A stretch of DNA of 64,000 nucleotides from Candidatus Falkowella caecavicola (GCA_904420125.1 CAJFUK010000008.1:1-64000); one strand, 5' to 3'. Counted from the stretch's first letter, positions 26,802-36,688 are shown. Notes: generated from the letters alone by a model not told the origin. Translations and numbers: made by a program.

Positions 26802-28790
26802 TCAGGGTCTGGGGGCCATTCCGTCCAGCAGCACAGGGGTCAGCCACTGGTGTTCCAGCAGCAGGTTGAACAGCTCCCAACCGTTCCGGAGCTGTTCCAG
26901 TTCGGTTTCCGAGAGCCTGTAGGATTTGGTTTCCTGCAGGCCATAGAATTTGATACGCACATCCTCGTTTTTTTCGATCTCCGACATCAGGCTGTACAGG
27001 TCCTGCCAGAAAAGCTCACTGGAGTCAAACAGGTGCACAACCGGCAGATAATGCAGAAATTCGTCATCTTCCGTGACCAGGACATTGATATCGGAGAGTG
27101 GGGGATACCAGGTTTCCTGTTCTCTGCCAAAATCAAACGTGATTCGGTCAAAATAAAACGGTTCGGAATCCTGAAAGCCGGTAATCAGCAAAAATATCGG
27201 AATGTTGTTAAACAGCAGAAGGCGCGGTTCAGTATGGCGGGTGTCATCAATATGATACTTTTTCGGCGTATCGGAGGCTATCGACAGCCAGTATGCGTTA
27301 TCGCCCGCATCTTCATAGACAAAGGTCGGTTTGAGCATTTCCAGTCGGCACCAGTCCCAGAGGATATCCGGATTTTCCGAATTTTCCGGATTTGTTCTGT
27401 ACAGATCATCCTGCACCGCCAGGACATTGGCGTCCCGCAGCGTTGCCGCTGCGCCGGTCGTGTCCCCGTTGGCCAACTGCTGCTCGACCTGCCCGCGCAG
27501 GTCGTCGACATATAAGGCGCTGACCTCTGTTCGGATCTCGCGGAGGCTGGGCAGGATCGGCATATCTTCCGGCAGATTGTATACCAGATCAACCGCGCCG
27601 TGCAGATCCCCGGCACTGATCCTTTTTTCCGACTCGGTCAGGAGATAATTGTCGAGTTCATAGAACAGATCCAGCCGTTTGTCGGTAATTTCCTGAGAGT
27701 TCAATTCCAAAGGCACCTGCGTGAGCTCCAGATAAGCCCCAAGCAGGTCCCCGGCCGCCAGTTTTTCGTCAGCCATGGAGATAAAAACCCGACAGATCTT
27801 TGTTTCCATCTCCTGCCGGACGCTGGTTTCAAACAGATACGCCGGATGCTGGTTCAACGCCAGGAACGCGCCGTTTGGATCCCCGTTTTCCAGCACTTCT
27901 TCCGCCTGCCGGATGACCTCCTGCTGGGCGTTTTTCTGTATTTCCTGCTTGCGGAGGGTGGATGATTCCTGCCGGACGGAATTCGGGATTTCATCGAGGG
28001 CGTACCAGGCATCCAGAAAACGCCCTTCTTCCACAAGGCCTTCCGCTTTATCCAGCGCTTCCTGATTGAGGATATCGGAAATTTCAGCGATTCCCTGCCT
28101 GGACTTTTCATAGGTGTTCGGATCCTGGCTGCTGATTTCCCGATATACTTCCAGCGCTTCCAGATAACGCGCTGCCTTCTTCAGCCCATCCGCTTCGATC
28201 AAAGCGGCGCGGTCCTCGGAGATCTGTTGAAGCACGGTTTCTGCCTGCTCGCAGTCGTAGTCCCAGCCTCTAGAAAAGAAAGGCTCAATGGCCTCTACCC
28301 GTTCGTTGGCCTCATCCAGAGAAATGGTTCCCTGCTGGCAGGCTTCCAGCGTTTCCTTCAGATAGGCATCGACAAGCTCCCGTTCATACCGCCAGAGGGA
28401 TCCGGTGGCAGACTGCCTCTGAATGGCATACGCCTGCTCAAAGTCTCCCCTGGCAAAGGCGCGTTCAAAGCGTGAGGTGGGGGAAAAGAACAGCAGGAGA
28501 AAAATACCGACGGCCAGTACCACAACAATGCCGATCAGAAGACAAAGCCACCGCGGCCACCGCTTGGGCGGTGGGGCCTGGTCAGGCTGGTTGGTTTGGA
28601 TGGATGGACTGGGCTGGCCGGGAGGACTTTGCGGTGGAGACGACTGAGCCAACTGAAAACCGCATTGAGCACAGTATCTGGTCCCGCAGCTGACAGCGCC
28701 GCAGTTTGGACAGGTTGTACTATTAGTATTATTTGTGTTGCTTATACTGCTTGTATCATTTGCGTGATGCGTATGTTGGGTGCTTTGCAT
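26802..28790 (-). CDS. Zinc-ribbon membrane protein with long helical extracellular part
   Basis: 662 residues. After a polar Asn/Ser/Thr-rich start (1-25), one zinc ribbon is formed by CPNCGAVSCGTRYCAQCGFQ. A Pro/Gln-rich linker and one transmembrane helix (about 82-105, LCLLIGIVVVLAVGIFLLLFF) follow. Residues 110-440 are repeated alpha-helical hairpins with recurring patterns such as LVEEGRFLDAWYALDEIP and LANGDTTGAAATLRD, TPR-like. The last 170 residues look mixed alpha/beta. AAAGGAG lies nine bases before ATG. The architecture (cytoplasmic ribbon, helix, outside solenoid) parallels the protein at 16829. Function unknown. Confidence 0.7.
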   Translation of the reverse strand: MQSTQHTHHANDTSSISNTNNTNSTTCPNCGAVSCGTRYCAQCGFQLAQSSPPQSPPGQPSPSIQTNQPDQAPPPKRWPRWLCLLIGIVVVLAVGIFLLLFFSPTSRFERAFARGDFEQAYAIQRQSATGSLWRYERELVDAYLKETLEACQQGTISLDEANERVEAIEPFFSRGWDYDCEQAETVLQQISEDRAALIEADGLKKAARYLEALEVYREISSQDPNTYEKSRQGIAEISDILNQEALDKAEGLVEEGRFLDAWYALDEIPNSVRQESSTLRKQEIQKNAQQEVIRQAEEVLENGDPNGAFLALNQHPAYLFETSVRQEMETKICRVFISMADEKLAAGDLLGAYLELTQVPLELNSQEITDKRLDLFYELDNYLLTESEKRISAGDLHGAVDLVYNLPEDMPILPSLREIRTEVSALYVDDLRGQVEQQLANGDTTGAAATLRDANVLAVQDDLYRTNPENSENPDILWDWCRLEMLKPTFVYEDAGDNAYWLSIASDTPKKYHIDDTRHTEPRLLLFNNIPIFLLITGFQDSEPFYFDRITFDFGREQETWYPPLSDINVLVTEDDEFLHYLPVVHLFDSSELFWQDLYSLMSEIEKNEDVRIKFYGLQETKSYRLSETELEQLRNGWELFNLLLEHQWLTPVLLDGMAPRP

Positions 28791-28986: not shown

Positions 28987-29015
28987 TTTACAGGAAGATA
29001 TTTTTATGATATTAT
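28987..29015 (+). promoter_or_regulatory. Promoter of the cytochrome operon
   Basis: TTTACA (28987-28992), 17-base spacer, TATTAT (29010-29015), 36 bases before the first start codon. An upstream TTGACA at about 28963 lacks a good -10. Confidence 0.6.
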
Positions 29016-29051: not shown

Positions 29052-29933
29052 ATGAATCAAGGTCAAAATCGAGGTGCTTGGCAAAACAGGGTTTTTCAGA
29101 TTTCTGTCTGGATTACAATCGCTATGACGGGAATTTTGCTGGTGCTGGCCGGGTTGCAGGTATTCCGGCAGGAACAAATGCAGACGTTTTCCTTTGCCAA
29201 CGGGTTTATTCTGACTTTATTTGTGCTGTTTTCTGCGGCGCAGGCAGTTTGCCTGCTGACACGCAAGCTACAACTCAAGCAGCTTGGTTTTTTCTTAGCC
29301 CATGCCGGGATTTTGGCATTTTTGCTGGGCAGCTTATTATTTTATGTATGGGGAGACACGGTTTATGCCTGGATTCCGGTCAACGGGACGTCCTATAACA
29401 GCGTACAGCGGGAGGACGGCAGCCTGCTGGATCTGGGATTCGATATTCAGGTGAATGATTTTACAGTCGAAAAATATGAGCCGGTTTGGGATCTGTATGA
29501 ACAAACAGAAAACGGTTGGGAGAAAACAGGCACGGATTTTGCTTTGCAGGATGGGCAGGTGGATTTTGGCCCATACGGTGTTTGGCCTCAGGCTGATTTG
29601 ATGGAAAACGGCACTTATCTGAATCAAATCCTGTTAGATGACAGGCATCTGGCCGTTTGCAGGCAGGCGGATCGTTATTATGAGGCCGGCATTGTACTAT
29701 ATGAACCGGGCGTGAAGGAGCCGCGTCAGGTTTCTCTGGCTGTAAACCACACCGCCCGCGCCGGGGATTTTAAAATTTATCTGATGGGGTATGATCCGGC
29801 CAGTCAGGACAGCATCCAGGTTTTATTTAAAAAGGATCCGGGCGAGTGGATTTCCGTGGCCGGGATTGCAGCGATGATTGTCGGTATCTTTATGCTCTGT
29901 ATTTTCCGCGGCAGAAAGGCGGTGGAGAAATGA
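29052..29933 (+). CDS. resB: ResB/CcsB-type cytochrome c maturation protein
   Basis: 293 residues, short for ResB (commonly 400-550) because the extracellular domain is reduced. Three N-terminal transmembrane helices (about 17-37, 50-70, 77-98), an exported beta-rich domain (100-255) and one C-terminal helix (about 265-288) match the ResB layout. The conserved look of helix 3 (LGFFLAHAGILAFLLGSLLF) includes the histidine typical of ResB/Ccs1. With CcsA it forms the system II synthase that attaches haem to CXXCH motifs outside the membrane. AAAGGGGAAGAG precedes ATG. First gene of a four-gene operon; overlaps ccsA by 4 bases. Confidence 0.82.
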   Translation: MNQGQNRGAWQNRVFQISVWITIAMTGILLVLAGLQVFRQEQMQTFSFANGFILTLFVLFSAAQAVCLLTRKLQLKQLGFFLAHAGILAFLLGSLLFYVWGDTVYAWIPVNGTSYNSVQREDGSLLDLGFDIQVNDFTVEKYEPVWDLYEQTENGWEKTGTDFALQDGQVDFGPYGVWPQADLMENGTYLNQILLDDRHLAVCRQADRYYEAGIVLYEPGVKEPRQVSLAVNHTARAGDFKIYLMGYDPASQDSIQVLFKKDPGEWISVAGIAAMIVGIFMLCIFRGRKAVEK

Positions 29934-30697
29934 TGGCTGTCTTACTCAAAATCATCATCCTCTGCGCGGCGCTGGGATATCTTCTCTCCGCGGTTCTGTA
30001 TTGGAGAAGAAAAAATAAAGCTGCCTTTATTCTGCATGGGGCAGCATGGATTCTTAACGGCACGGTGATTCTGGTCAATTGGGTCATCAATGGGTATATG
30101 CCGTTTGTCAGCATGTACCAGGTGCTGACCTTTCTTTCTTTTTGCTTTACCCTATCGGCACTGTATATGCATTTTATCCGGAAGCAAGGCTGGCTGTTTC
30201 CCTATTTCAGCCTCTGTTCCGGCATCATTATGACCGGCGTTTTCTGGATGGACGCAAGCCTTGTCTGGCATTTTGCTCCGGCACTTCAGTCGGTCTGGTT
30301 TTTGCCCCATGTGTTCAGCTATATGCTGTCTTATACGCTCTGCGCGGTTTCTTTTGTCCTTACGCTGGTTCGGCTGATCCGCCGGAAAGAACAGGAGAAG
30401 ATGGAACGGGGCGTTTATGACACGGTTTGCCTTGCCTACCCCTTCATGACCGCCGGGATGCTCTTCGGCGCTTTGTGGGCAAATGAAGTATGGGGGCACT
30501 TCTGGAGCTGGGATCCCAAGGAAAACTGGTCTTTGGTGACCTGGCTTCTCTATGCGCTGTATCTTCACTGCCGTCGCCTTCCCAAATACAGGGGGCTGGC
30601 AACAGCGTGTATTATCATTGGCTTTGCAGCGCTCCTGATGACCTTCCTGGGAGTCAATTTCTTCGGCGCAGGCGCTTTGCACAGTTATACATCCTAA
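29930..30697 (+). CDS. ccsA: CcsA/ResC cytochrome c assembly protein
   Basis: 255 residues, about eight transmembrane helices. The haem-handling WWD motif is explicit: WGHFWSWDPKENWSLVTWLLY starting near residue 188. Flanking histidines occur in LPHVFSYMLSYTLCA and YLHCRRLPKYRG. This is the haem-transporting half of cytochrome c synthase system II. Translation is coupled to resB (ATGA overlap). CcdA and ResA thiol partners are not in the window. Because the only other genes in the operon encode CXXCH proteins, this pair appears dedicated to them. Confidence 0.93.
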   Translation: MMAVLLKIIILCAALGYLLSAVLYWRRKNKAAFILHGAAWILNGTVILVNWVINGYMPFVSMYQVLTFLSFCFTLSALYMHFIRKQGWLFPYFSLCSGIIMTGVFWMDASLVWHFAPALQSVWFLPHVFSYMLSYTLCAVSFVLTLVRLIRRKEQEKMERGVYDTVCLAYPFMTAGMLFGALWANEVWGHFWSWDPKENWSLVTWLLYALYLHCRRLPKYRGLATACIIIGFAALLMTFLGVNFFGAGALHSYTS

Positions 30698-30720
30698 CGA
30701 TTCTCAAAGGGGGAAAAGAG

Positions 30721-32916
30721 ATGGAGGAAAAGAATCCAAAAATCACGTCCAAAAAAGCGCTCCTGTTTACCGGGGGAGGAATCGCAGTCATTCTGGTCGC
30801 TTGCCTGATATGGCTGTTCGTCCGGCAAAACGGGCCGGTACAACCCGCTATTCAGCAGCAGGTCCTGCAGACCGTGCAGCATTACATATCGCCGACAGAG
30901 ATCAGCATATCAGACGGGTTTGCCTATACAGCAGATGCGACCCGCGGAATGGTGTATAAGACCAATCTGGCAACCGGCGCGCAGGAGGCAAGTTTTGAAG
31001 CCGGAGTCAGCATAAACGGTGTTTATGCCGCAGACGGAAACGTTTATGCGCTGGCCGGGGGACTGGACGGCCGGGTGATAAAGCTGGATACTTCCTTGCA
31101 ACAGGTTGCTGAAGCACAGGCTGGACACACGCCGGTGGAGATGCTGGCGGTGGACGGAAAACTCTATTTGGCGAACCGGTTTTCAAACACTGTAGGTGTT
31201 TATCATGCTGATTCTCTGGAACTGGAAAAGGAAATAGCAGTTTCCAGAGAGCCGATGGCTATGGCGGAGGCCGGGGGGATGATCTATGTCGCTTCCCATT
31301 TAAGCGAAGCACCGGCCAATGCCGAAGTAACGTCTGCCAGTATTACTGTGATTGATCCGGCTAAAGGAGAAGTGGTCAAAGAAATCCCATTGCTCAACGG
31401 GTCGGTCAATGTGAAAGATATCTGCGCATCGCCCGATGGAAAATATCTGTATACGGCGCATGTGTTGGCACGATATGCCTATCCAACCTCTCAGGTAGAC
31501 CGCGGCTGGATTGAAACCAACGCAGTCACGATTCTGGATGCGGAAACACAGGAGGTGCTGACCAGCGTTTTACTGGATGAAGTGGAACATGGTGCGGCGA
31601 ATCCCTGGGGAATCCGCTGCACGGACACGGCGCTGGTTGTCTCGCTGGCAGGTACCCATGAGGTGATGATCATTGATACGGCGATGCTTTTTGACAAAAT
31701 AGCTGCGGTCGAGGCCGGGCAGAATCAAAACGTAGATACGGTACTTGATATCCCGAACTATATTCCATTTTTGGATGGTGCGAGAACCCGTATCGAACTC
31801 GACGGACAGGGCCCCCGCGCGTTGGAGATCGCGGATGGCAAAGCCTATATCTGCCAGTACTTCACCGGCGATCTGGCGGTGCTGGACCTGGAGACACAGA
31901 CGGTGACTTCCTGCAGCCTCGGCGAACAGCCGGAACCGGATGACGTACGGAAAGGCGAGATCCTCTGGCATGATGCTTCCAACACCTATCAGCAATGGTT
32001 AAGCTGCTCCAGCTGCCATCCGGATGCGCGGATGGATTCGTTAAGCTGGGATGAGCTCAACGATGGGCTGGGAAACCCCAAAAGCACGAAGGGTTTGGTC
32101 TACTCCCACCGGACACCGCCCTGTATGGCGACTGGTGTAGCAGAAAATGGTGAGGAGGGTGTCAAAGGCAGCCCGAACGTTGTCATGACAGATGAGGAAT
32201 TTGCCTGCATGGACGCTTATCTCAAGTCCCTTGCGCCGGTGCCGAGCCCGATGCTCAACCGGGACGGCACGCTGACCGAAGAGGCGCTGCAGGGGAAAGA
32301 AATTTTTGAACAGGCCGGCTGTATCAGCTGCCATACCGGACCGAATTTTACCGATCAGAAAAGTTATCCTCCAACCGGCGTGGATCCGGTCGAGAACGGA
32401 TGGGAAAACCGGGATATGGATACGCCGACGCTGGTGGAGGTATGGCGGACCGGCCCGTGGCTGTTTGACGGACGCGTGGCGGATCTGCGGGAGGTTATTG
32501 AAATGAAGGCCGCGTCCAAGGATCTGACGGATGCGGAAAAAGACGCGTTGACGACCTATGTCGCTTCCATTGGCAGCGAAGGGGAAATCTACGGGGTTGT
32601 GCAGGTCCGCAGCCGTGCGGCAGACGGAAGTATGAACGCCAACACTCTGGAGCCGGGAGACACCATCTATGAATTTTCCTTCCGGAAACAGCAGGACGTG
32701 GATCAGGACGCTACGGCGACCTTCGTTCTCTATGATGCGAACGGCAAAGAACTGGCCAAACAGAATTTCCGCCTCAGGGACATGACCGCAGGAGATACCA
32801 TGGTATTTACCACGGAGATTCCCATTCCGGCCGACCTGGCGGACGGCGCTTATTATCAGATACAGATTACCGGGGATTCCGGAAGTCTTGCGACTGACTA
32901 TATCGTAACAAAATAA
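30721..32916 (+). CDS. Exported beta-propeller dihaem cytochrome c (MauG/CcP-like)
   Basis: 731 residues from ATG 30721 (AAAGGGGGAAAAGAG upstream). A signal anchor lies at about 12-33 (LLFTGGGIAVILVACLIWLF). Residues 50-400 are a YVTN/YncE-type beta-propeller with repeated blades (DGFAYTADATRGMVYKTNL, DGKYLYTAHVLARYA). The C-terminal part has two haem sites, C429-S-S-C-H433 and C534-I-S-C-H538. Between them and after lie segments of the MauG/cytochrome c peroxidase type (GLVYSHRTPPCMATG, DTPTLVEVWRTGPWLFDGRV). A further 100-residue beta domain ends the protein. It should be tethered outside the cell; it may be a peroxidase-like, sugar-oxidising or electron-relay protein. No axial-ligand assignment is possible here. 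Confidence 0.85.
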   Translation: MEEKNPKITSKKALLFTGGGIAVILVACLIWLFVRQNGPVQPAIQQQVLQTVQHYISPTEISISDGFAYTADATRGMVYKTNLATGAQEASFEAGVSINGVYAADGNVYALAGGLDGRVIKLDTSLQQVAEAQAGHTPVEMLAVDGKLYLANRFSNTVGVYHADSLELEKEIAVSREPMAMAEAGGMIYVASHLSEAPANAEVTSASITVIDPAKGEVVKEIPLLNGSVNVKDICASPDGKYLYTAHVLARYAYPTSQVDRGWIETNAVTILDAETQEVLTSVLLDEVEHGAANPWGIRCTDTALVVSLAGTHEVMIIDTAMLFDKIAAVEAGQNQNVDTVLDIPNYIPFLDGARTRIELDGQGPRALEIADGKAYICQYFTGDLAVLDLETQTVTSCSLGEQPEPDDVRKGEILWHDASNTYQQWLSCSSCHPDARMDSLSWDELNDGLGNPKSTKGLVYSHRTPPCMATGVAENGEEGVKGSPNVVMTDEEFACMDAYLKSLAPVPSPMLNRDGTLTEEALQGKEIFEQAGCISCHTGPNFTDQKSYPPTGVDPVENGWENRDMDTPTLVEVWRTGPWLFDGRVADLREVIEMKAASKDLTDAEKDALTTYVASIGSEGEIYGVVQVRSRAADGSMNANTLEPGDTIYEFSFRKQQDVDQDATATFVLYDANGKELAKQNFRLRDMTAGDTMVFTTEIPIPADLADGAYYQIQITGDSGSLATDYIVTK

Positions 32917-32940
32917 CCGGCAGGGAAAGGAGCGTACAGG

Positions 32941-35900
32941 ATGAATATACGAAAACAATACCGCGTGGTTTCCCTTTTGCTTTCCGTGGTTCTGCTGGTG
33001 GGGCTGATGCAGCCGGCGTGGGCGGCGGAGGAAGATGAAGAAGCAAAGGTGACGGTTTCCATGACGGAGGCCTCGGCGGAAGAACTTGGTTCCCTGCTGG
33101 ATTTTTCCCGGCAGTATATCGTTGCCAAACAGCGCCAGCTGGGCGGTTCTCATTATGCCTATACCGAGGGACTTAGCGATGAACAGGGGAGTCCGGACGG
33201 CAATGAGACCAATTATTATCCGGGATCCCAGCTTACCCTGCTGACCCTGGAAGAAAAAGACGGAAAGGTCCAGAAAACAGAAGAAGTCCTTTTGGAAAGT
33301 ATGGCGGGGGTTATCCGGGATCCGGATGTTTCACCGGACGGGACACGAGTCCTGTTTTCCTGGAAAAAGTACGGCCTGCAGGGAGATGATTTCCATCTTT
33401 ATGAGATGGATCTCCGTACGCGGGAGATTACCCAGCTGACTTTTGGACAGGGGCAGGCGGATTTTGAGGGCAAATATCTTCCTAACGGCAAGATTATTTT
33501 CAGCTCCTCCCGCATCATCCAGACAGTTGACTGTTTTATGACCCCGGTTTCCAACATGTATATCTGCAATGCCGACGGCAGTAATCCATATCGTGTGGGT
33601 TATGATCAGGTGCACACCACCTATCCGACCGTAACATCGGACGGACGGGTGATTTATACCCGCTGGGACTATAACGACAGAACCCAAATGTATATTCAGG
33701 GTGTATTCCAGATGCAGCCGGACGGCACCAATCAAACCGAAGTTTTCGGTAACGACAGCTGCTTCCCGACCACGCTGCTCCATACCAGAGAGATCCCGGG
33801 AGAGCCGTCCAAATACATCTCGATTGCCAGCGGCCACCATACCCTGCAAGCCGGGAAACTGGTCATTTTGGATACCTCGGTTGGACGTAATGATCCGGAC
33901 GCCGTGTCCTTCCCGTTCCCGGATTCCCAATCCAATAAGCTCGATCATGTGGACGGATACGGACAATCCGGCCCTTTATACAAATATCCGGTTGCCATCA
34001 ATGATCACGAGTTCCTGGTTTCTTACAGCCGGACCGGATGGGATGCCGCTTCCCAGAGAGACACGCCGTTCAGCATCTGTTATATGAATGCGCAGACCGG
34101 TGTGATTGAACCGCTCAGCGAGGCAACCGAGGTGTTGGATGCGGTCGTGGGCGCGTCTCAGATCGTGCCGGTGAAGACCCGCACTCTGACCGAACGGCCT
34201 TCTTCCGTCAATCAGGCGGTGGATACAGGCGTATTCTATCTCGGCAATGTCTATGAAGGAGAGGGAATGGAAGGCGTTGCGCCCGGGGAAGCCAAATACC
34301 TCCGTGTTGTTGCGCTGGAGTTCCGCAACAGTGCCATCGGCGCAAACCAGGGCCGCGGCACAGGCACCTCGGATCCCTATACCCCGGTTTCGACAGGAAA
34401 CGCTTCCTGGGACGTTAAACAGGTGCTGGGGATTATTCCACTCGAAGCAGACGGCTCAGCACTGTTTGAGGTGCCGGCCAACACGCCGGTTTATTTCCAG
34501 GTGCTGAATGCCGACGGAGAAATGATCCAGTCCATGCGAAGCTGGTCCACTTTGATGCCGAATGAAACCTTTTCCTGCGTGGGCTGCCATGAGGATAAAA
34601 ACACCGTTCCGCCGGTGCAGTCCGGCGTGACGGATGCGATGAAAAAGGGTGTGCAGAAGCTGCAGCCGGATCTCTGGATGGATGCGGATGCAGAAAATTA
34701 TGACCCTGCGCAGGCGGAAGGGTTCAGCTATCTGAAGGAAGTACAGCCGATTCTGGATCAGAGCTGTATTGAATGTCATAACGATCAGGCGCTTTCTTTT
34801 GAAGCCATCGGCGCGGATCCGTCCGGCCAGAAGATTGATACAACCAGAGAGCAGATCCCGCTGGTGGAATCCGGTGCGGAGGGTTGGACCTATACGGTCG
34901 AGAATAATCCGCTGCCGATCGGATGGCAGGATCCTGACTTCGATGATTCCGCCTGGGAAACTGGCAAGGCACCGTTCGGTACGCCGGATACGCCTCCGGG
35001 GGGATCTGAAACCACATGGAGCGGCAACAATCGGCTTTATATCCGCAAGACCTTTACGGTAGAAGATCTGGATGCGCTGCAGGGCGCCGCCTACTTTATG
35101 AATATCGCTTATGACGAGAGTCCGATCGTTTATTTGAACGGCGAGGTGATTTTCAGCGCGGACGGCTATATCACAGAATACCGTACGGAGAATATCACGG
35201 CTGCGGTTAAGAAGAACCTCCGGGAGGGAGAAAATCTGTTGGCTGTTTCCGTACAGAATACCTACGGCGGCCAGTTTATCGACATTGGTTTGTATTTGCA
35301 GGAGCCAGTGGTTTCTTCTACCGGTGCCCAGTTCTCTCTGGAGGGCGTGACGGTGCCGGGACAGCGTGAGAAAATGGATTATGTGCTTTCCTATCTGGTA
35401 TTGACCGGTTCTCAGAATACCGGCGTGCAGTATTTGGGTAATCCGGAGAATCAGTATATTCACTGGATCTCCTCCATGTCTGATTGTGCGATCATGGAGC
35501 CATATCAGACCGGTTCGACCCAGAGTCCCCTGATTCAGCGGCTGAAAGATGGCCATGGCGGACTCTCCGAAAAGGAAATTCAGACCATCGCGGCCTGGAT
35601 TGATCTGGCAGCACCTTTCCGGGGCAGTTATACGGAAAGCAACCGCTGGGGTGCAAACGAATGGCGCGAATATACCGAAAAATCCAACAAACGCGCTTTT
35701 TATGAGATGGAAGATGCCATGTCACGCCGGGATATGCTGGGACTCACCGATCCGCGGGAACTGACGATCACCTATCTGGATGATTTCGGCCTCGAGGACG
35801 AGACAGTCACTGGCAAAGGTCTGGTCCGGATGAATCGGGAACAGCCTTTCTATCTGGGTGAAACCATCCGTGTGACCCTTCCTGAAGGCGAGCATTATTT

Positions 35901-36576
35901 CTTCTTTAATATGGACTCCCGGCTGGAAGAAGCGCTGATTTACTGCCCGGATGGTGTGTTTGAATACAAGATCAGCGCGGAAACCCAGAATACCTGGCCA
36001 ATTACGGCCAACACAGATTCTCTGCGGCAGTACCAGCATCCGGTGATTACCGCGCGGCTGGCCACCGAAGAGGAACTTAAGACGGAAAGAAACCTGGCGC
36101 TTAATCCGTATGATCTGACCAATCCGTCCGCTAATGCGGCTTCTTATCCGCATGCGTCGGCCAGCAACTGCTATAACAATGGGGTACAGTCTGAGTTTGC
36201 AGCGCGCAATGCCATCGACGGATATCGGGTTAACGGCGGACATGGAACCTATCCGGTTCAGTCCTGGGGGCCGGATCAAAACCAGGAAAATCTCTGGTTT
36301 ACGGTGGATTTCGGGCATGAAGTGAATCTGAATCGTATTGTTCTGACCATTCGGGCTGATTTCCCGCATGATGTGAATTTCCCAAGCGCTGTGCTGGAAT
36401 TTTCAGACGGCACGACACAGGAGATCACTATTGAATGTACGGCAGAGCCCCAGGAATTCCAGATTGAAGGCGGTAAAGTGACAACCAGTATCACCTTTAA
36501 GGATATGAAAACCGATTCGACTGGCTGGGCGGCCTTTACTGAGGTAGAGGCCTTCGGCGTGCCGGTGCTGGGCTAG
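32941..36576 (+). CDS. Giant exported dihaem protein, hydrazine-synthase-alpha-like
   Basis: 1211 residues. Signal peptide 1-28 with cleavage near AWA-AEE. A TolB/PD40-type propeller covers about 100-430 (DPDVSPDGTRVLFSWKK, PNGKIIFSSSR, DGRVIYTRWDYND). Haem motifs are C546-V-G-C-H550 and C609-I-E-C-H613. A beta-sandwich (about 645-790, WQDPDFDDSAWETG..., like jelly-roll carbohydrate-binding domains) is inserted after haem 2. At about 875, LSEKEIQTIAAWIDLAAPF is the hallmark that follows the haem domain in hydrazine-synthase-alpha-like proteins of Planctomycetes. The last 150 residues resemble an F5/8 discoidin domain (NGGHGTYPVQSWGPDQ..., LWFTVDFG). Real hydrazine synthase activity is very unlikely; the other subunits are missing. 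Confidence 0.82.
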   Translation: MNIRKQYRVVSLLLSVVLLVGLMQPAWAAEEDEEAKVTVSMTEASAEELGSLLDFSRQYIVAKQRQLGGSHYAYTEGLSDEQGSPDGNETNYYPGSQLTLLTLEEKDGKVQKTEEVLLESMAGVIRDPDVSPDGTRVLFSWKKYGLQGDDFHLYEMDLRTREITQLTFGQGQADFEGKYLPNGKIIFSSSRIIQTVDCFMTPVSNMYICNADGSNPYRVGYDQVHTTYPTVTSDGRVIYTRWDYNDRTQMYIQGVFQMQPDGTNQTEVFGNDSCFPTTLLHTREIPGEPSKYISIASGHHTLQAGKLVILDTSVGRNDPDAVSFPFPDSQSNKLDHVDGYGQSGPLYKYPVAINDHEFLVSYSRTGWDAASQRDTPFSICYMNAQTGVIEPLSEATEVLDAVVGASQIVPVKTRTLTERPSSVNQAVDTGVFYLGNVYEGEGMEGVAPGEAKYLRVVALEFRNSAIGANQGRGTGTSDPYTPVSTGNASWDVKQVLGIIPLEADGSALFEVPANTPVYFQVLNADGEMIQSMRSWSTLMPNETFSCVGCHEDKNTVPPVQSGVTDAMKKGVQKLQPDLWMDADAENYDPAQAEGFSYLKEVQPILDQSCIECHNDQALSFEAIGADPSGQKIDTTREQIPLVESGAEGWTYTVENNPLPIGWQDPDFDDSAWETGKAPFGTPDTPPGGSETTWSGNNRLYIRKTFTVEDLDALQGAAYFMNIAYDESPIVYLNGEVIFSADGYITEYRTENITAAVKKNLREGENLLAVSVQNTYGGQFIDIGLYLQEPVVSSTGAQFSLEGVTVPGQREKMDYVLSYLVLTGSQNTGVQYLGNPENQYIHWISSMSDCAIMEPYQTGSTQSPLIQRLKDGHGGLSEKEIQTIAAWIDLAAPFRGSYTESNRWGANEWREYTEKSNKRAFYEMEDAMSRRDMLGLTDPRELTITYLDDFGLEDETVTGKGLVRMNREQPFYLGETIRVTLPEGEHYFFFNMDSRLEEALIYCPDGVFEYKISAETQNTWPITANTDSLRQYQHPVITARLATEEELKTERNLALNPYDLTNPSANAASYPHASASNCYNNGVQSEFAARNAIDGYRVNGGHGTYPVQSWGPDQNQENLWFTVDFGHEVNLNRIVLTIRADFPHDVNFPSAVLEFSDGTTQEITIECTAEPQEFQIEGGKVTTSITFKDMKTDSTGWAAFTEVEAFGVPVLG

Positions 36577-36652: not shown

Positions 36653-36688
36653 AAAAAGCATCGGACCCTAAAGGGTCCGATGCTTTTT
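36653..36688. terminator. Terminator of the cytochrome operon
   Basis: AAAAAGCATCGGACCC/GGGTCCGATGCTTTTT, a perfect 16-bp inverted repeat with loop TAAA. It is symmetrical and can also end the minus-strand ABC-F gene. Confidence 0.95.

Follow-up and report, generated by a model that had tools for sequence, protein, structure and literature searches.

A hydrazine synthase-like protein set in a four-gene operon

The gut-type Clostridia genome of Candidatus Falkowella caecavicola harbours a four-gene operon whose two large products are, almost certainly, relatives of hydrazine synthase (HZS), the first two genes encoding a cytochrome c synthase. It lies at 29052-36576 of the window, by which is meant the whole 64,000-nt stretch analysed (GCA_904420125.1 CAJFUK010000008.1:1-64000), and open-frame analysis gives the order resB, ccsA, gene 3 and gene 4 (Table 1). 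Gene 3 is a fused relative of the HZS beta and gamma subunits, and gene 4 a relative of the alpha subunit; an earlier note on this DNA had rightly described both as dihaem proteins, and had missed the homology. In initial sequence searches the best solved relatives of gene 3 were 5c2v_B (E 1e-15) and 5c2v_C (E 3e-13), and that of gene 4 was 5c2v_A (E 4e-5). With profiles of Clostridia relatives these matches strengthened to E 6e-29 for beta (5c2v_B), 5e-27 for gamma (5c2v_C) and 4e-17 for alpha (5c2v_A). AlphaFold models of genes 3 and 4 (mean predicted local distance difference test scores of 86 and 84, respectively) have HZS (5c2v) as their best match in the Protein Data Bank (PDB), and support the propellers previously proposed for both. 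The gene 3 propeller matches HZS beta (5c2v_B) with a VIA Z of 41.0 over 328 residues (next fold 33.5; Foldseek E 1e-18), whilst residues 25-875 of the gene 4 model match 5c2v alpha with a VIA Z of 24.0 over 576 residues (next fold 19.1; Foldseek E 2e-23). The structure matches for gene 3 are filled by propellers, and the gamma identity of its dihaem domain comes from the sequence profile match. From the profile and model matches together it follows that the operon encodes the whole alpha-beta-gamma set in two genes. Scores to the curated families fall far short of their cut-offs: the best NCBIfam model for gene 3 is the HZS beta-gamma fusion NF052342, at 82.3 bits against a cut-off of 1250, and gene 4 reaches 37.3 bits to HZS alpha NF052339, for which the cut-off is 800.

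Both large proteins contain exactly two CXXCH motifs, as had been claimed, and all four are located at HZS-homologous positions. Shuffled versions of the proteins yield a mean of 0.0019 (gene 3) and 0.0014 (gene 4) such motifs, and none of 20,000 shuffles produced two, so that their paired occurrence is not due to chance. They are also conserved, gene 3 retaining both motifs in 37/37 Clostridia relatives and gene 4 in 32/33. Overall, the window proteins share with HZS (HzsABC, PDB 5C2V) the alpha, beta and gamma folds, the placement of the four c-type haem motifs, the order of the genes (beta-gamma before alpha, as anammox bacteria have it) and a beta-gamma fusion like that of Scalindua. They differ in the addition of a membrane anchor, an inserted sandwich and a CBM32-like domain, and show approximately 20 % identity.

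Conservation extends beyond the haem motifs and is of an enzyme-like kind. In gene 3, residues R176, T256, Q258, W263, W426, C429, C432, H433, W443, D444 and K454 are invariant across phyla, and a haem gamma-I pocket comprising W443, D444, K454, P466 and P467 is common even to the anammox proteins. The near-invariant loop of gene 3 aligns around a loop of HZS beta that comes close to the tunnel running from one active haem to the other (PMC12607021). Within the gene 4 alignment Cys198, His152, His300, Arg241 and Trp242 are invariant, and a putative metal bound at Cys198/His300 was considered. His872 falls one alignment column from alphaHis772, making it a plausible distal ligand of haem alpha-II. 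The earlier note had assigned signal sequences to both large proteins; this holds by eye for gene 4, which has a typical one, whereas gene 3 carries a membrane anchor or lipobox-like segment with no clear cleavable signal. In some gene 3 relatives a lipobox replaces the transmembrane anchor.

Departures from hydrazine synthase and from dihaem peroxidases

Several key residues of HZS, taken from PMC12758564 and PMC12607021, are missing from the window proteins. The haem ligand alphaTyr591 aligns with Asn554, a position at which Asn is invariant in Clostridia, and alphaCys303 aligns with Asp272 of gene 4. At the site of gammaHis144 the window has Ala470; His is found here in 1/37 Clostridia compared with 6/6 anammox proteins, and most Clostridia have Ile, Val, Ala or Ser. 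The segment bearing gammaCys165, which forms the third thioether, and gammaAsp168 is absent from the gene 3 alignment. The multihaem hydroxylamine oxidoreductase (HAO)/hydrazine dehydrogenase family was likewise not found in the window genome, whilst the same search recovered 15 and 12 stretches in two anammox genomes. Because these residues are missing and the family is absent where a positive control detects it, assignment as a hydrazine synthase of anammox type was rejected, and the operon product probably performs some other redox job.

The gamma-like domain is also related to that of bacterial dihaem cytochrome c peroxidases and MauG. It scores 25.9 bits to Pfam PF03150, a borderline value beside the cut-off of 25.6, and matches 2c1u at E 5e-6; with NCBIfam it matches the MbnH family (E 2e-8) and MauG (E 7e-6), both far under the family cut-offs. 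Unlike these enzymes it is fused to a propeller, has an alpha-like partner subunit, and lacks their bridging Trp, the position of which is, according to PMC12758564, that occupied by Ala470 in the window.

Maturation and haem supply

The operon is headed by resB and ccsA of cytochrome c System II. The product of the latter scores 164.6 bits against TIGR03144, under the cut-off of 187.6, and contains the predicted WWD-type motif (WGHFWSWDPKENW). ResB is short, covering part of the Pfam model, and its placement alongside presumed target genes distinguishes the arrangement from System II as otherwise known. CcdA is encoded elsewhere in the genome (PF02683, E 3e-22; contig G000:C76), and its neighbour is a thioredoxin-like protein of ResA/TlpA type, named by eye. 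Since both are present, System II looks complete, with all four components in this genome, and the earlier proposal of an exported, self-contained module for c-type cytochromes that brings along its own ResB-CcsA is supported. A PF13442 search for further cytochromes was of low sensitivity, missing gene 3 itself.

With regard to haem synthesis, AhbC/D genes are clear in genome G023 and in Bacilliculturomica massiliensis, whilst a search of the window genome gave only a distant radical-SAM match. In B. massiliensis, an isolate (L143/L144, G447:C20), the gene order is hzsA-resB-ccsA-hzsBC, and ahbD-ahbC-ahbB-ahbA-like genes, dockerin and SLH surface proteins and the HZS-like set lie within ~30 kb; haem synthesis, haem attachment and the target enzyme thus share one region of a cultured strain. 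Genomes G121, G150, G369, G426 and G074 contain the operon or parts of it and match neither HemB (ALAD) nor CcdA, and therefore would need to import haem.

Operon layout

Open frames and Pfam matches bear out the four genes. The resB and ccsA frames overlap by the expected 4 bases (ATGA), and gaps of 23 and 24 bases, which agree with the 23-25 proposed, separate ccsA from gene 3 and gene 3 from gene 4, respectively. A single promoter and a single terminator had been suggested to bracket the operon. The terminator stands, being a strong hairpin, whereas the promoter is a weak consensus match, because 12 such sites are observed in the region and 7.1 are expected. Carbohydrate genes are indeed close by, with a GH43-CBM6 enzyme and a Gfo/Idh oxidoreductase upstream in the window. 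Divergent from resB is a 662-aa zinc-ribbon membrane protein (26802-28790, minus strand) with no Pfam match.

Table 1. Operon features and flanking signals, in window coordinates
Feature	Position	Strand	Basis
Promoter-like site, TTTACA-17-TATTAT with extended TG	28987..29015	+	10/12 consensus matches; weak
resB, cytochrome c synthase subunit (System II), 293 aa	29052..29933	+	Pfam ResB E 3.1e-17
ccsA (ccsB of NCBIfam), haem-handling subunit, WWD motif	29930..30697	+	Pfam Cytochrom_C_asm E 1.5e-32
Gene 3, HZS beta-gamma-like, membrane-anchored propeller and dihaem domain, 731 aa	30721..32916	+	Profile and model
Gene 3 N-terminal transmembrane anchor	30757..30822	+	Sequence; model helix 20-34
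Gene 3 seven-bladed propeller, HZS beta-like	30877..31899	+	AlphaFold model, structure match
Gene 3 loop RYxxPTxQxDxxW, near-invariant	31456..31524	+	Aligns around HZS-beta tunnel loop
CSSCH, haem gamma-I motif	32005..32019	+	Sequence, alignment
CISCH, haem gamma-II motif	32320..32334	+	Sequence, alignment
Gene 4, HZS alpha-like, sugar-binding-like C-terminus, 1211 aa	32941..36576	+	PF18582 E 3.3e-32; model
Gene 4 signal peptide	32941..33024	+	Sequence, by eye
Gene 4 N-terminal propeller (TolB/HZS-alpha-like)	33100..34182	+	AlphaFold model, structure match
HZS_alpha middle domain	34285..34593	+	Pfam, far over cut-off
CVGCH, haem alpha-I motif, inside HZS_alpha middle domain	34576-34590	+	
CIECH, haem alpha-II motif	34765..34779	+	Alignment
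Sugar-binding-like beta-sandwich inserted in alpha-II haem domain	34840..35307	+	Model strands; tentative
His872, conserved, candidate distal ligand of haem alpha-II	35554-35556	+	Alignment
C-terminal CBM32/fucolectin-like domain	36082..36573	+	Model residues 1019-1182
Intrinsic terminator, 11-bp stem and T5	36658..36688 (hairpin 36658-36683)	+	-28.9 kcal/mol, z -8.2

Distribution and relatives

The operon is rare in its lineage, with gene 3 present in 7/394 genomes (5/169 genera) of the order and the HZS_alpha domain in 3/398 genomes of the phylum. A scan of named public genome contigs returned 76 loci, 38 of which are loci from Clostridia metagenome-assembled genomes (MAGs), many of gut or rumen origin (goat, sheep, deer, rabbit, buffalo and others); one cultured Clostridia strain, B. 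massiliensis, is also included. Further loci come from Verrucomicrobiota, Planctomycetota and, within Bacteroidota, several groups (Alistipes, Rikenellaceae, Bacteroides sp. 519 and Labilibaculum). The order resB-ccsA-betagamma-alpha occurs in 26/38 Clostridia loci; three more end at a contig edge after beta-gamma, and five carry beta-gamma-alpha with no resB-ccsA nearby. Loci from beyond Clostridia mostly have alpha and beta-gamma side by side, and no resB-ccsA adjoins them. Because 26 of the 38 loci share this order, and dozens of independent MAGs, as well as one isolate, carry the operon, a chimeric contig was rejected. Nor is the operon a common one of known role in this lineage, another possibility the earlier note had raised.

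In a gene 3 tree rooted on anammox proteins, the window sequence belongs to one deep Clostridia clade (98% by the Shimodaira–Hasegawa-like approximate likelihood ratio test, SH-aLRT), apart from Bacteroidota and the Planctomycetes–Verrucomicrobia–Chlamydiae (PVC) group. The earlier note had inferred a transferred system; recent transfer from Planctomycetes or Verrucomicrobia is not supported by this gene 3 tree.

Co-located alpha and fused beta-gamma homologues of HZS are reported from Planctomycetota, Syntrophobacter and Paludibaculum, and beta-gamma homologues from Bacteroidota and 'Bacillus'; the authors' verdict is that these are not hydrazine synthases (Hagglund 2025, PMC12758564). The window genes resemble clades I-IV of that paper in pairing alpha with fused beta-gamma and in lacking the key HZS residues. 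Clades I-III differ in having Trp at gammaHis144, where Clostridia mostly have one of the four residues noted above, in placing alpha before beta-gamma, and in possessing an FG-GAP partner. The main text of PMC12758564 mentions no Clostridia branch, linked ResB-CcsA, or CBM32 or dockerin modules, and in the open literature we found no description of a Clostridia branch, dedicated maturation genes or a dockerin link.

Further relatives were encountered during these searches. A second, more distant lineage is formed by HZS_alpha proteins from a different family within the phylum (L149 and L150; G808 and G985), which adjoin a propeller gene and score only 76 bits to the family model. Amongst Planctomycetota, the HZS beta-gamma model has matches at E <= 0.001 in 190/294 genomes, probably to propellers only in many cases. 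A tandem RidA/FkbO-Hyg5-like protein, a possible cytoplasmic partner, is encoded near the beta-gamma gene in 10 loci (L066:2268-3542, L067:10333-11379 and eight more) from Planctomycetota, Verrucomicrobiota, Bacteroidota and Acidiferrobacteraceae.

Links to glycans

Residues 1019-1182 of the gene 4 model match CBM32 and fucose-binding lectins with Z 15-17, and the same region scores 28.0 bits to Pfam F5_F8_type_C, just under the cut-off of 28.2; sugar binding is predicted for this domain from the model. With regard to the inserted sandwich, two relatives reach PF02837 somewhere in their chains. Four relatives, all from MAGs, have a type I dockerin at the end of the alpha-like protein, scoring over the Pfam cut-off; dockerins are the modules by which enzymes plug into the cellulosome. 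In other members of the family the C-terminal module of gene 4 is also encoded on its own, with DUF2264, heparinase II/III and L-rhamnose mutarotase (rhaM) genes as neighbours. An AraC-type regulator adjoins the operon in around ten Clostridia loci, an assignment for which the Pfam check covered only the window's member of one of two regulator groups; the window's own copy is 8 kb upstream rather than adjacent. Bacteroidota alpha/betagamma pairs are accompanied by a xylulokinase-like kinase, deoC and an alcohol dehydrogenase, and clusters of this kind (L082:4062-12548 and L067:4922-9284), which also hold a Mal s 1-like propeller, would represent a sugar pathway. Modest singly, these items jointly make a role linked to glycans likelier than one in nitrogen chemistry or in defence against stress. 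In searches of the open literature, no link between HZS homologues and the gut or polysaccharides came to light.

Possible function

Our best explanation, held a little short of even confidence, is a cell-surface complex that has the architecture of HZS and a different, glycan-directed chemistry, and is matured by its own System II synthase. We infer the reaction and substrate as follows. ResB-CcsA would carry haem across the membrane and attach it to the four CXXCH motifs, whilst the gene 3 product would tether the complex to that membrane. By analogy with HZS, the gamma-II and gamma-I haems may pass electrons or oxidising equivalents between them, and a product or radical could cross the conserved beta loop to be used at haem alpha-I of the alpha-like subunit. 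This would constitute a two-site enzyme in which gamma-I and alpha-I communicate as in HZS, with other ligands and another substrate. Most likely that substrate would be a glycan, or a molecule derived from one, which the CBM32-like domain would hold or which, in relatives, dockerin attachment would keep near.

A number of points weigh against this explanation. Haem attachment, complex formation and activity are all predictions. The gamma domain has neither the bridging Trp of peroxidases and MauG nor the His of HZS, and its gamma-II distal-ligand position is not conserved, the window having Phe582 where HZS has His; since none of these is kept, the protein does not reveal which way electrons flow. 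No dedicated electron partner was found near the operon, in agreement with the earlier note. CBM32-like folds also exist in proteins that do not bind sugar, and the window's Pfam score misses its cut-off. Finally, because the neighbouring genes change from locus to locus and genomes of this kind commonly have sugar genes, the genomic context is suggestive only.

Other functions can be weighed on the same evidence. It is unlikely, though consistent with the kinship to cytochrome c peroxidases and with the NO reduction proposed for HZS gamma-I (PMC12607021), that the complex serves detoxification, with H2O2, NO or hydroxylamine reduced outside the membrane by its gamma-like dihaem domain, and the alpha-like subunit providing a second reduction site. 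The loss of the bridging Trp argues against this, and the sugar-binding and dockerin modules and AraC-type neighbours suit glycans better than stress. A distinctly unlikely alternative has the four haems merely relaying electrons between a surface acceptor and a partner, with no substrate chemistry of their own; the surface location, the four c-type haem motifs and the lack of a dedicated substrate gene in the operon agree with such a conduit, whereas no partner cytochrome was found, and electron transfer does not call for HZS-type propellers or for pocket and loop residues that are near-invariant. Moreover, haem alpha-II of HZS is too distant from the other haems for efficient transfer (PMC12607021).

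The MbnH and MauG matches would also fit a modifying enzyme, with the gamma-like domain oxidising residues in a secreted protein, either its alpha-like partner or a different one. With both matches far under their cut-offs, the Trp missing and the partner itself a haem enzyme fold, this seems very improbable. Least credible of all is real N-N or N-oxide chemistry close to that of HZS in a gut bacterium: the full alpha-beta-gamma architecture and all four haem motifs speak for it, yet the missing alpha and gamma residues, the absent HAO/hydrazine dehydrogenase family and NCBIfam scores of 82 of 1250 and 37 of 800 leave it exceedingly doubtful.

Significance

Fermentative gut Clostridia are usually assumed to be without c-type cytochromes, and the operon points to their presence in such organisms. 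To our knowledge, HZS was long held to have no relatives outside anammox bacteria. Distant relatives were described in detail only in 2025 (PMC12758564). The conserved four-gene version from gut Clostridia, which has haem-attachment genes of its own and glycan-binding or dockerin domains, gives a compact setting in which to study the use of the HZS scaffold where no hydrazine is produced, a question that is testable because cultured B. massiliensis has the whole set together with haem-synthesis genes. It is conceivable, albeit rather unlikely, that these proteins constitute a new class of anaerobic haem-based surface enzyme, performing redox chemistry on plant or host glycans with an HZS scaffold, and in some cases plugged into cellulosomes by dockerins. 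If so, they would be the haem counterpart, in oxygen-free habitats, of the known oxidative polysaccharide enzymes, and would represent the wider family from which hydrazine synthase arose.

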